Source of the DNA: Candidatus Iainarchaeum sp.
Lineage (GTDB): Archaea > Iainarchaeota > Iainarchaeia > JAFGOX01
NCBI GenBank assembly: GCA_016926295.1
Contig: JAFGOX010000041.1
Span: forward strand, 1 to 35,191
Direction of reading: 5' to 3'
Length of the DNA stretch: 35,191 bases
Part shown: positions 16,100 through 21,445 of the stretch, piece after piece
Layout: each line of letters begins with the position of its first letter
How positions within the stretch are numbered: the stretch's first letter is position 1
The notes under the pieces: generated by a model
The model's database searches: none
The model's input: the letters and a program-made list of their open reading frames with translations, nothing else
Told to the model about the DNA's origin: nothing
Translations under genes and position numbers: made by a program

Positions 16100-19000
16100 T
16101 TATTCTTCTATTTTAATCGTTTCATCTGTAATCGGCTTCTGAACATCCTTGCCTGAAAGCTTTAATCCGACTACAGAAGAGCCATCTGCACCCCTGGCCA
16201 CACCAATTACCTGGTCCACAGCCCTGATTACTATGTCATTGTGGCTGATAATCACAAACTGTGAAATGTTTGCATAGTTTTTCAGCAGACCGCCAAGTTT
16301 GTTTGCATTAACTGCATCTAAAGCCGCATCGGCCTCATCCAAAATATAAAACGGCGCAGGTTTGTGCTGCTGTATTGCAAACAGGAAAGCCAAGGAAGTG
16401 AGTGTTTTCTCACCGCCACTCAACGCGTCTATATTCCTGAGCATTGCCCTGCCTTTTGGAGCCGCCTCAATAAGCAGACCTGAATTGAACAGGTCTTCCT
16501 CATTGTCAATCTTAAGCGTTCCTTTGCCTTCAGTAAGCTGCGGATAAACAGTCTCAAAGTTCACTCTGATTGAATCGAATGTTTCTCTAAAGGCTTTTTC
16601 CCTCTTAGAATCAATCTTTGATATCATATCGAGAACTACTTCTCTCTCGCGTCTCAAAATGTCAATCTTTTCCTCAATCTCATTAATCTTCTGAAGATAC
16701 TCATCGTAAAGAGTAAGGGCGCGCATATTGACTGCGCCAAGAGCTTCGATTTTTGCTTCAAGCTCCGGAAGCTGCCTCATTAGGTCACTAACCGAATCCT
16801 TGAGCGGCTCAACGCCAACATATTGCTTGAATTCCTCTTTCAAATCTGCCAGCTTTGTCTCGACTTTTGCCATGTTGATTCTGGCCTCATTAACAGACGA
16901 TTCTATTCCGCTTATTCGGCCAAGATGCTTGCCTTTTGACATTCCCAGCTCTTCAAGCTTCTTGTCAACCGCATCTTTTCTTTCCAATAAAGTTTCAAGG
17001 CTCTTTGAAGTCTTCCTTAATTCAATCTCTTTCTTTTCAAGCTCTTTTGAAAGGATTGTGATACTGTTATTCGAAACCTTTATTTCATTGTCAAATGAAT
17101 CTGTTTCTTTTGAAATATTTTCAATCTGCGCAACAGTTTCTTTCTTTCTGATTTCAAGACCCTGCTCAATTTCAGTCTTAAGTCTCTGAACACCTACAGT
17201 CTGGGTTGACATCGACTCTTTCAATGCATCTATCTGCTTGCTCAAGTCGTCTATCTCCAGTCTGCTTTTGCTTGCACGAGATTTTGCAACCAGGGTTTCT
17301 ATCTCTTTCTTCTCAGTTTCCAGTTGGCTTATCTTTGTCAATAGTTTCTCTGATTCTTTCTTCTTAAGCTTAACATGTGATTCAATATCCTTAACAGAAA
17401 CAAGCAATCCCTTCTGCGTATCCCCTAGTTGCTCAGAAAGTATGTTTCTTTCTTTCTCAACTTCCTTGATTTTTCCCTCAATCTCTGCGCGCTTTTCCCT
17501 TAGCTCGTTTGACTCTATTCTCACGCGCTCGATATCGCTTAAGGCATTGCGCTTCATTGCCTCGACATCCATAACCTGCTGTTCAAGCTCCTTGACCCTT
17601 TTAACATCCTTAATCGTAAGCGTCTTCTTGTTCCTTGAACCACCAAGCATTACTCCGGAGGATTCTGATATATCGCCATCTTCGGTAACCATTCTTATTT
17701 TTCCGACGCCAACCTTTCTCGCACTCTCAATTTTGTCAATAACAAGTGTGTCTCCAAAAATATACTCAAATGCAGGCCTGAAAGATTCTCTGAAATCAAC
17801 CAGATTTATGGCAAAGTCAATTGCACCGGCATTCTTTGCAAGCGGTTTCACTTCTGCAGTAATGGCCCGCCCTCTGATTTTATTGAGCGGGATAAAGGCA
17901 ACCCTTCCAAGATTCTTCTTCTTTAGATAATTAATACAATCTGTTGCGGTCTTATCGTCATCCACCACAACATAAAACATCTTCGAGCCGATTGCAGTCT
18001 CGATTGCAACAGCATTATTATCAGAGTACTTGCACAAATCAGCGACAGTGCCGTATATTCCTGAAATTTCACTTTTCTTTTTTGCCTCAATAAGGGCGTC
18101 AACTCCGGGTGGCTGCATAAGTCCTGCTGATTTCAAGGTTGAAAGCGTTGTTTTAAGCGAAACATAATCCTCTCTTATTGCCTTAAGCTCGTTCTCAACT
18201 GTTTCAAATTTCTTGTTTACTCTTTTCTCTTCCTCAAAATATGATGATATGCTTCTGTTAACGGAGTCAAGTTCGTTCTTGTAGGATGCAAGCTCTTCTT
18301 CAATTGCATCATATCTTGACTGGGCTTTTTTGATTGCCTCTTCTGCGCCCTGAGACTGCTCCTTCTTTATTTCAATTTCCCTTGTGTATGCGTCAATCGC
18401 GGCTTTTAATAAATAGAACTGCTCTTTCAGTCCGTCAATCTCTATTGACTTCTTCCTGAGCTGTGACTCGTGTTCGTAAGCGGACTCGTCCTCTTGCTTG
18501 TATTTCTCAAGTAATTCAGTCTGCTTGTCTCGGAGGTCCTTTAATTTCTTAAGTTCTGGGGCATTCTTCTCTTCCAGTGCTTTCAGCTCATTCTCCTTCT
18601 GGGTAATTTCAGATTCAATATTTGACTGCCTTTCGCGCAACTCCTGAATCGCCTGTGTATTTTTGCTAATCTGCTCTTTTCTTGACTTTGTCTTTTCCTT
18701 GTTAAGCTCAATATCGGTTCTTAATTTTTCCATGTCCTGCGCAAGCTTTGTCTGACCTGCCCCACCAGATTCAAGGATTTCCTTGTTCAGGTCCTTGAGT
18801 TTTTTGTCCCATGTCGATATCTCCGCATCAAGTTCCTCAATCTTTTCCTTTGCCTCTTTTATTTTTGTATCGCTGCTCTCAAGCAGTTTCCTGTTGTGCT
18901 CAAAGTCTTTTTCATATCTCTGTATTTCAGAGCCAAGGACTGTTGATTTTATTCTTTTTACCTTTGTATTGAGTTCCTGGAATCTTTCAGCATCCTCTTT

Positions 19001-21445
19001 GTCCTTCTTCAATGCGTCAAGCATCTCCTGCCTTTCGCCCTTAATAATATGCCATTCCTTGATCTTGTCTTCGACCTTGTCCAGTTGTCTCAGGGACTCC
19101 ACTTTCTTCTCTTCGTACTCTGCAATCCCTGCAACCTCGTCAATCACGGTTCTTCTCATTCTAGGGGTCATTTCAATAACCCTTTCAATATCTCCCTGCA
19201 AAACAACGTTATGGCCGGAAGTACTGATATTAAGACTCATAAGCAACGCATGGATTGCGCTCCTTGTGGTCCTTTTCCCGTCAATTCTATAAACCGATTT
19301 GCCCTGTTTGTCAATTGTTCTCGTGACAACATAATCCTTTTCCCCGTCCTTTAGGACAACACTAACGCGGGCCTTGCCATCAACTGACTTGTGAAAAACT
19401 AGGTCACTTAATCTGTCTGCACGAATTGTCTTAAGACTGGAAATTCCAAAAACAAACATCAGAGCGTCAATTACATTGGAATTATGAACAATACAATTTT
19501 CTGCAACAAAATTATGATAAGGAATTACGGTTAAATCATAAACATATTTGTCTTTTGGGACAATCCTTCTTATATCTACTATTTCTTCCCAATAAACCTC
19601 TGAATTGGCCAATCTGCGTAACAACGTTATTTTTTCTCTTACTAGGACACTATTACTTTTCATAAGTTGTGAGAATGCTAATTTAATTTTAGATAAGGTT
19701 TGTCTGTTTGGTACTCTGGCGCCACGTATAAAATCACTAATATTATTCGCAACACCTGCATATTGTGCAAATCCTTTTTGACTTATTCTAAACGTGTGTA
19801 AAAATAAATCCAACCCCAAAAAAAGCTCATTTTCATTAACTTTTTCTATTTCATTTAATTTACTCTCAAAAATATCTGCAACCTCAATTAATCCTGCCCT
19901 ACTTGGTGCACAAGATCCTTCTAAATAAGCCTTAAGCTTTGGATGCCCAAAACCACTGAGTTCTTTTGAATTAACTCTTAATATAGAAAACAAATCACGA
20001 ATAATTGGCTGAACACCCGGTATAACATCAAAATTTGGATTTGTTTTTTTATTTTGGAAAGATTCTAAAACCTGCGTCAAAGTTTCTTTCTTTTTACCAA
20101 CAAGATAAATGTTTTCATTAAACAAACCTAAATTTCCCTTACCATAAATAGATAATCTATAATGGGTTCTACGAACTTTGTTCTTAGTATTAGCTGCACA
20201 TTTCTCAGTCTTACTAATTGTTGAAGAAATTCCTAACCTAAGCAGAAGCGTTTGCATAGCATATATTATATCTTTGCTGGCTGAAGTAAGTTCAAGATGA
20301 TTTTTAGAAACGTGGCCGTCACCAGAAAAATAACTTCCAATTAAGTGGCCTATTTCCTCATTTGTTAACTCAAACACAAAAGGACTAAATTTCTTAGTTG
20401 CTGCATGTGCACCTTGTTTTAAACCAAAAAGGTTTTCAAGATAAACGCCTGCAGCATGAGAAAAAATCATTGAATCATAGCAATTTGGCTTATACTTCTT
20501 TGTATATGCCATAGCCCCAAACAGTTTCTTTGATAGTTTTTCAAAATCTGCTATTATTTTCTTATCTTCATTAATAATTCTAATTTGATTTGAATTCTGG
20601 AACCCGCCTTCTGCGAATAAGTAACCCGCATACCTTGCCAAATCTGCACTAATTTTTGGAACTGCTACTGTTTTGTTTTGTGATTTTGATTTAATTTCTG
20701 TAACAAAGCTAACTATTTCATTTTCTCTACCAATTGCACATAATATTTTTACAAGCCAATAAATATTAACTGCTTGTTTATCCCTTATTCCTTTAATTAC
20801 ATTTTTTGGGATTCCAACTTTAACTGACACATTTACAACTGAACCATAAGCCTTCATTAAATCTGAAATTAAAGAATATACCTTATCTGAATAAGGAACA
20901 TAAATATTATCTTCAAGCCCAAATAAATTAAGTAATAAATTATCACGCCTAAGATTAACTTCTAATTTTCGCGGAGTTGCGACTTTAGAACCAACACTAA
21001 GTTCTTCTGCCTTAGCTGAAGTTATCTTTCCATCTTTTAGAATAATTAAGGGGTGATAAGGTGTTGTTGTAATTTCTTTTCCCGAGCGTAACTTTATATT
21101 TAATAAATTTTCAGGTGCAGTACGTTTTATGAATGCCGTAACTGGAACTTGCTCAATTTTTGCAGTATTTGGATTTAATGAAAGAATTTCTATGCCTTCG
21201 GGGTTACCCAAAGTAAAAATCCCATCATCCATATTTTCTGTTTCTGCGGTCTTAAGGAGTGCAGTATCTACAATATCTTTAATAGTTCTAACCTTTCCAT
21301 TCGCTAATTGAATCTTAGAATCTCCAACTAAACACTTGCCGGAGCCGTTTGCCCCCACAACCGCGGTCAACCCATTAGCAACGGGTATGTCTGCCTTCTT
21401 GAAAGACTTGAAATTTCTAAGTTTAAGCGCATGTATCTTAACCAT
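16100..21445 (-). CDS. smc: Chromosome segregation protein SMC, interrupted by an in-frame intein
   Basis: SMC is the ABC-type ATPase that compacts and aligns chromosomes. The 1781-residue precursor consists of residues 1-37, a 618-residue intein (38-655) and the rest; the spliced protein would be 1163 residues, normal for archaeal SMC. The N-terminal head has Walker A GANGSGK at 31-37, whose Ser follows the intein, and a Q-loop in VVLQGDIERV. Two long coiled coils flank a hinge containing ISGIYGTVADLCKY and AIETAIGSKMFYVVVDDD. The C-terminal head has the signature LSGGEKTLTSLAFLFA and Walker B FYILDEADAALD. No scpA or scpB is in the window. The start is ATG 21445, 34 nt after the upstream membrane-protein gene on the same strand. 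Confidence 0.95.
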   Translation of the reverse strand: MVKIHALKLRNFKSFKKADIPVANGLTAVVGANGSGKCLVGDSKIQLANGKVRTIKDIVDTALLKTAETENMDDGIFTLGNPEGIEILSLNPNTAKIEQVPVTAFIKRTAPENLLNIKLRSGKEITTTPYHPLIILKDGKITSAKAEELSVGSKVATPRKLEVNLRRDNLLLNLFGLEDNIYVPYSDKVYSLISDLMKAYGSVVNVSVKVGIPKNVIKGIRDKQAVNIYWLVKILCAIGRENEIVSFVTEIKSKSQNKTVAVPKISADLARYAGYLFAEGGFQNSNQIRIINEDKKIIADFEKLSKKLFGAMAYTKKYKPNCYDSMIFSHAAGVYLENLFGLKQGAHAATKKFSPFVFELTNEEIGHLIGSYFSGDGHVSKNHLELTSASKDIIYAMQTLLLRLGISSTISKTEKCAANTKNKVRRTHYRLSIYGKGNLGLFNENIYLVGKKKETLTQVLESFQNKKTNPNFDVIPGVQPIIRDLFSILRVNSKELSGFGHPKLKAYLEGSCAPSRAGLIEVADIFESKLNEIEKVNENELFLGLDLFLHTFRISQKGFAQYAGVANNISDFIRGARVPNRQTLSKIKLAFSQLMKSNSVLVREKITLLRRLANSEVYWEEIVDIRRIVPKDKYVYDLTVIPYHNFVAENCIVHNSNVIDALMFVFGISSLKTIRADRLSDLVFHKSVDGKARVSVVLKDGEKDYVVTRTIDKQGKSVYRIDGKRTTRSAIHALLMSLNISTSGHNVVLQGDIERVIEMTPRMRRTVIDEVAGIAEYEEKKVESLRQLDKVEDKIKEWHIIKGERQEMLDALKKDKEDAERFQELNTKVKRIKSTVLGSEIQRYEKDFEHNRKLLESSDTKIKEAKEKIEELDAEISTWDKKLKDLNKEILESGGAGQTKLAQDMEKLRTDIELNKEKTKSRKEQISKNTQAIQELRERQSNIESEITQKENELKALEEKNAPELKKLKDLRDKQTELLEKYKQEDESAYEHESQLRKKSIEIDGLKEQFYLLKAAIDAYTREIEIKKEQSQGAEEAIKKAQSRYDAIEEELASYKNELDSVNRSISSYFEEEKRVNKKFETVENELKAIREDYVSLKTTLSTLKSAGLMQPPGVDALIEAKKKSEISGIYGTVADLCKYSDNNAVAIETAIGSKMFYVVVDDDKTATDCINYLKKKNLGRVAFIPLNKIRGRAITAEVKPLAKNAGAIDFAINLVDFRESFRPAFEYIFGDTLVIDKIESARKVGVGKIRMVTEDGDISESSGVMLGGSRNKKTLTIKDVKRVKELEQQVMDVEAMKRNALSDIERVRIESNELREKRAEIEGKIKEVEKERNILSEQLGDTQKGLLVSVKDIESHVKLKKKESEKLLTKISQLETEKKEIETLVAKSRASKSRLEIDDLSKQIDALKESMSTQTVGVQRLKTEIEQGLEIRKKETVAQIENISKETDSFDNEIKVSNNSITILSKELEKKEIELRKTSKSLETLLERKDAVDKKLEELGMSKGKHLGRISGIESSVNEARINMAKVETKLADLKEEFKQYVGVEPLKDSVSDLMRQLPELEAKIEALGAVNMRALTLYDEYLQKINEIEEKIDILRREREVVLDMISKIDSKREKAFRETFDSIRVNFETVYPQLTEGKGTLKIDNEEDLFNSGLLIEAAPKGRAMLRNIDALSGGEKTLTSLAFLFAIQQHKPAPFYILDEADAALDAVNANKLGGLLKNYANISQFVIISHNDIVIRAVDQVIGVARGADGSSVVGLKLSGKDVQKPITDETIKIEE
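19481..21334 (-). other. Intein in the SMC Walker A motif (LAGLIDADG homing endonuclease type)
   Basis: The 618-codon insert starts at Cys (21334-21332), directly after GSGK, and ends HN (19486-19481) before Ser, giving the classical junction Cys1...His-Asn/Ser+1. Splicing blocks are visible: CLVGDSKIQL (A), TPYHP with His94 (B), YDLTVIPYHNFVAEN (F) and CIVHN (G). Between them lie two LAGLIDADG motifs, LARYAGYLFAEGG (232-244) and LIGSYFSGDG (331-340). Their acidic residues Glu242 and Asp339 are kept, so the endonuclease may be active. Helix-turn-helix-like modules occur at about 165-195, 445-480 and 515-555. Base composition is visibly more AT-rich than the flanking exteins: for example 13 G+C of 60 at 19801-19860 against 27 of 60 at 16861-16920. 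This fits horizontal arrival. Confidence 0.95.

Follow-up and report, generated by a model that had tools for sequence, protein, structure and literature searches.

The smc gene of a very small uncultured archaeon, a Diapherotrites (DPANN) relative, is interrupted by a 618-residue intein inserted between the Lys and Ser of the SMC Walker A motif. We interpret this as a cis-splicing intein of class 1, carrying a LAGLIDADG homing endonuclease nested within it, which would excise itself, restore the ATP site and spread, and we place the probability of this reading at about 0.9. Most likely it is an ordinary homing element on whose splicing SMC function depends.

An intein in the Walker A motif of SMC

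The window is the whole stretch of DNA analysed, 35,191 nucleotides in length, from a source genome of 592 kb in 52 contigs that is 79% complete. The smc open reading frame encodes a 1781 aa precursor, and its neighbours (FtsZ, ribosomal L1 and L10, a Lon C-terminal domain, TrmB and a tRNA intron endonuclease) fit an archaeal host. The features, all on the minus strand, are as follows.

16100..21445, minus strand: smc gene with in-frame intein (ORF translation and NCBIfam SMC_prok_A)
21335..21445, minus strand: N-extein, 37 aa, ending in the GANGSGK of Walker A
19481..21334, minus strand: intein, 618 aa, Cys1 to His-Asn, precursor residues 38–655
20945..21334, minus strand: N-terminal part of the splicing domain, about residues 1–130, with Cys1 and T91/H94 (alignment and model; approximate boundary)
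19856..20944, minus strand: LAGLIDADG endonuclease and DNA-recognition region, residues 131–493, with E242 and D339 (approximate boundary)
19634..19855, minus strand: 74-aa insert, residues 494–567, probably an XRE-like helix-turn-helix (alignment, weak helix-turn-helix matches and model)
19481..19633, minus strand: C-terminal part of the splicing domain, residues 568–618, with D600, H607, H617, N618 and the unique Cys614 (alignment)
16100..19480, minus strand: C-extein of SMC, 1126 aa plus stop, first residue Ser+1, hinge-type

Removal of the intein in silico leaves a 1163-aa SMC containing VVGANGSGK/SNVIDALMFVFG, in which the joined Walker A motif reads GANGSGK/SNVID. The host protein scores 758 bits against NCBIfam SMC_prok_A (cut-off 729), contains a hinge domain (E 4e-31), and is the only full SMC detected in this partial genome.

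A sequence-only reading of the window had proposed a 618-residue Cys1/HN-Ser intein between the Lys and Ser of the SMC P-loop, with two intact LAGLIDADG motifs and several helix-turn-helix-like modules, and the anatomy bears this out. Pfam (Intein_splicing, 9e-28; LAGLIDADG_3, 2e-18) and NCBIfam (intein_Nterm, 1e-16; intein_Cterm, 0.004) models together span the whole length of the insert, and its removal restores Walker A exactly. Cys1, the block B residues T91 and H94, the block F residues D600 and H607, H617–N618 and the +1 Ser are all present, and when 40 SMC inteins are aligned the seven of these that lie within the intein prove invariant. The intein thus has every sequence feature of the class 1 cis-splicing type, including exact host restoration, and its presence at 19481–21334 is far beyond chance. 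The LAGLIDADG acids E242 and D339 are both in place, each being kept in 39 of the 40 aligned inteins; the exception is an endonuclease-less intein in another genome of the phylum (G051).

An AlphaFold model of the intein (pLDDT 92.4, pTM 0.89) shows a confident intein-plus-endonuclease fold, so that the two acidic motifs are accompanied by the fold expected of a LAGLIDADG endonuclease. The nearest solved structures in a fold search are the TliVMA, PI-PkoII and PI-PfuI inteins, with I-DmoI also among the matches, and the helix-turn-helix-like modules appear in the model as helices at about residues 160–200, 442–472 and 508–536. PI-PkoII, PI-PfuI and TliVMA (2cw7, 1dq3 and 7qss) likewise have a splicing domain with a nested LAGLIDADG endonuclease, although identity over the fold match is only 15–17% and the window intein has an extra C-proximal module, probably XRE-like. 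The best sequence match in the PDB is to the Pyrococcus CDC21-1 (MCM) inteins 6rpp and 6rpq (3e-26), but at 168 and 279 residues these chains fall far short of the window intein, match only in the splicing domain and come from a different host protein.

From these intact residues we infer that the intein splices and that its endonuclease cuts. Following translation the intein would excise itself and GSGK would be joined to SNVID, rebuilding the ATP site; the precursor, in which GSGK is parted from Ser as the earlier reading had claimed, is predicted to be inactive as an ATPase. Homing would proceed by endonuclease cleavage of smc alleles that lack the intein, at their conserved P-loop DNA, with repair then spreading the element. 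Persistence at such a site could be explained both by imprecise loss, which would inactivate an important gene, and by P-loop DNA being conserved enough for the endonuclease to find it again in distant hosts.

SMC P-loop inteins are recurrent and patchily distributed

We scanned 85,462 species, each represented by a single genome, with a pattern consisting of an SMC-like P-loop followed by Cys1, widened because GxNG alone misses relatives with GANASGK. The scan returned 54 stretches, 50 of which read as an SMC P-loop with an intein start, and as the pattern is strict this is a lower bound. Two stretches (L088 and L118) were set aside as chance matches to the pattern and two others (L100 and L122) because their SMC identity lacked confirmation. 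The archaeal records are from Diapherotrites, Micrarchaeota, Woesearchaeota, Pacearchaeota, Nanosalinarum, Thermoproteota, Brockarchaeota and a Mnemosynella, and the bacterial records are from Omnitrophota, Acidobacteriota, Rokubacteria, Patescibacteria/Kaiserbacteria and one deltaproteobacterium.

Most of the inteins that could be read at both ends are 530–565 aa long and homologous along their whole length, and by sequence most appear to constitute a single homologous family; four (L054, L101, L102 and L115) are 160–190 aa and have no room for an endonuclease. The P-loop inteins in SMC of GW2011_AR10, Pacearchaeota, Woesearchaeota, Micrarchaeota, Omnitrophota and Acidobacteriota share with the window intein the insertion point and full-length homology (32–41% identity), but are without its 74-aa insert.

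Occupancy is patchy within the host phylum. Among 55 genomes searched with an SMC model the site is occupied in four (the source genome, G000, and G003, G032 and G051), empty in 43 and unresolved in eight, and a pattern search of 87 phylum genomes gave no SMC intein beyond those known. The site is also occupied in RS_17_2 (L138), a record titled Diapherotrites. The empty sites looked for in sister lineages are therefore common, and the relatives do not all share the intein by descent with a decayed endonuclease. Joined-site DNA in sampled empty alleles matches that of the window at only 10–15 of 20 core bases, so the alleles sampled include no recent donor or target. A search of 35 viral loci gave no close relative of the intein, the matches being distant and confined to parts of the endonuclease or to short stretches at the C-terminus, and we do not favour a virus as the carrier.

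The sequence-only reading knew of no archaeal SMC example. This holds for the literature, in which an open-access search found no paper on SMC inteins and the intein reviews checked, among them PMC5874633, make no mention of SMC, but it does not hold for genomes, as about 50 other species records are occupied. We take the absence of reports as a lead that SMC P-loop inteins are undescribed. With the site occupied in so many species, the intein does not represent a new kind of element; it is an uncommon resident that nonetheless recurs, and our verdict is of a real, intact-looking SMC P-loop intein that is ordinary in kind, at a recurrent and seemingly unreported host site.

Conflict between the SMC and intein trees

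In the SMC tree the Diapherotrites, including the window, group together (98/96), and tips with the intein are intermixed with empty ones. The intein tree, built without the extra insert, places the window intein as the basal branch of a DPANN clade (100/97) and the RS_17_2 intein among bacterial inteins (98/94), and an AU test rejects the five Diapherotrites inteins as one clade (p-AU 3e-6). The conflict between the two trees shows that the element has moved between lineages, and the RS_17_2 placement together with the AU rejection that entry into the SMC site, or exchange there, has happened repeatedly. The window intein also groups with SMC inteins apart from the RFC and MCM inteins of its own genome; as several branches in that tree are long, we treat this grouping as a lead.

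An alternative explanation is that the intein is an old, vertically inherited element of DPANN smc, retained in a few lineages and lost from most. The basal position of the window intein is consistent with this, and the endonuclease-less form in G051 shows that decay does occur, but the Diapherotrites inteins are not one clade although their SMCs are, and tips with an occupied SMC alternate with empty ones. We consider vertical descent across DPANN unlikely, though the window intein might nonetheless be long established in its own lineage. The G051 form is a mini-intein of 190 aa (L054:4962-5531, minus strand) and is sister to the 546-aa AR10 intein.

Base composition does not date the arrival

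The intein is more AT-rich than its exteins, as the earlier reading had stated (GC 0.318 against 0.419; GC3 0.193 against 0.446), and recent arrival had been proposed on that basis. We reject composition alone as evidence for this, since GC3 is below that of the exteins in 43 of 44 SMC inteins (mean gap 0.13; Wilcoxon p 1e-12, only indicative because the sequences are related to one another), and other inteins of the source genome, some with approximate or partial boundaries, show the same bias (0.26–0.33 against 0.36–0.44 in exteins). The gap of 0.25 in the window intein is the third largest of the 44 and its GC3 is the lowest among the inteins measured in its genome, which would suit recent arrival from an AT-rich donor; nevertheless, the generality of the bias and the lack of any relative above 41% identity make such an arrival doubtful.

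A distinctive insert and a junction-proximal cysteine

By alignment, the 74-residue insert is a new feature distinguishing the window intein from other family members, as residues 494–567 are missing from all other SMC inteins among the 40 aligned. In the model this region forms three short helices atop a long helical hairpin (pLDDT about 63–79), and it matches HTH_3 (E 0.032, 14.7 bits against a cut-off of 23) and the restriction-modification C protein 4yba (E 0.0097) weakly. It is probably an XRE-like helix-turn-helix, and most likely would contribute extra DNA contacts. A search of 86 other phylum genomes for a similar stretch gave one weak match only, and the host's own MCM intein, considered as a source, does not align with it.

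Cys614, close to the splice junction, is likewise unique among the 40 aligned inteins, the position elsewhere being I, V, L, M, F or T. It could in principle pair with Cys1, and the P-loop location ties SMC activity to splicing, raising the question of whether the intein is a domesticated switch in which redox, ATP, salt or temperature-responsive splicing times SMC activity; conditional splicing is reported for RadA and DnaB inteins (PMC5790916, PMC6195587). However, patchy occupancy and an intact endonuclease suit a selfish element, 43 relatives with empty sites manage without the intein, and Cys614 is not conserved across SMC inteins and so is no family-wide device. Regulation of condensation through splicing, as the earlier reading had proposed, is possible, but we think it very improbable that this intein is such a switch. 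The slimmest chance of all goes to a composite in which SMC P-loop inteins are a widespread and apparently undescribed allele common to archaea and bacteria, and in which acquisition of a DNA-reading helix-turn-helix and a junction Cys in this host would put SMC activity under the control of the cell through splicing.

Other inteins and SMC proteins

Further inteins are present in the source genome (contigs C34, C48, C29 and C13; L056, L060, L057 and L061), in MCM, PolB, the RFC P-loop, a radical SAM protein, where the CxxxCxxC motif is split, and a PEP synthase-like protein; free-standing LAGLIDADG proteins are also encoded. Elsewhere, an ABC-transporter-type ATPase (LSGGERQRVAVARAL) has a P-loop intein of the form GPSGSGK/C...HN/S (L139, G087:C2:12000-16500). 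ATPases of this kind are not otherwise known to us as intein hosts. In another record (L093) an SMC N-extein and intein continue into GyrB-like sequence (KNTDGSHIRTLLLTFFFRQ), either as an assembly chimera or through recombination between inteins.

Some archaeal hosts of SMC P-loop inteins have a zinc-hook-like SMC, in contrast to the hinge SMC of the window. Many Diapherotrites and, separately, Pacearchaeota (L052 and L079 C-exteins; L035–L049) have SMC_prok_A heads without a hinge, scoring 489 and 453 bits where Rad50 and ASRP models score far lower, with a CPVC or CPLC zinc-hook-like motif in the middle of the coiled coil; the two groups occupy separate positions in the SMC tree. An open-access literature search for zinc hooks in DPANN found no paper, and these proteins are possibly more novel than the SMC intein.

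Discussion

The P-loop inteins of RadA, RecA, DnaB and RFC are class 1 elements in the Walker A motifs of DNA-handling ATPases, often with an endonuclease (PMC5874633). The window intein shares their chemistry and type of insertion site and differs in its host protein, SMC, which extends the known range of P-loop intein hosts to an ATPase that organises chromosomes. A single insertion site is occupied in two domains and the trees plainly conflict, so the site is well suited to the question of why inteins become established in P-loops. Where a host has only one smc, splicing would be a prerequisite for ATP binding by any SMC, and the intein would offer a direct test between a tolerated parasite and a switch.
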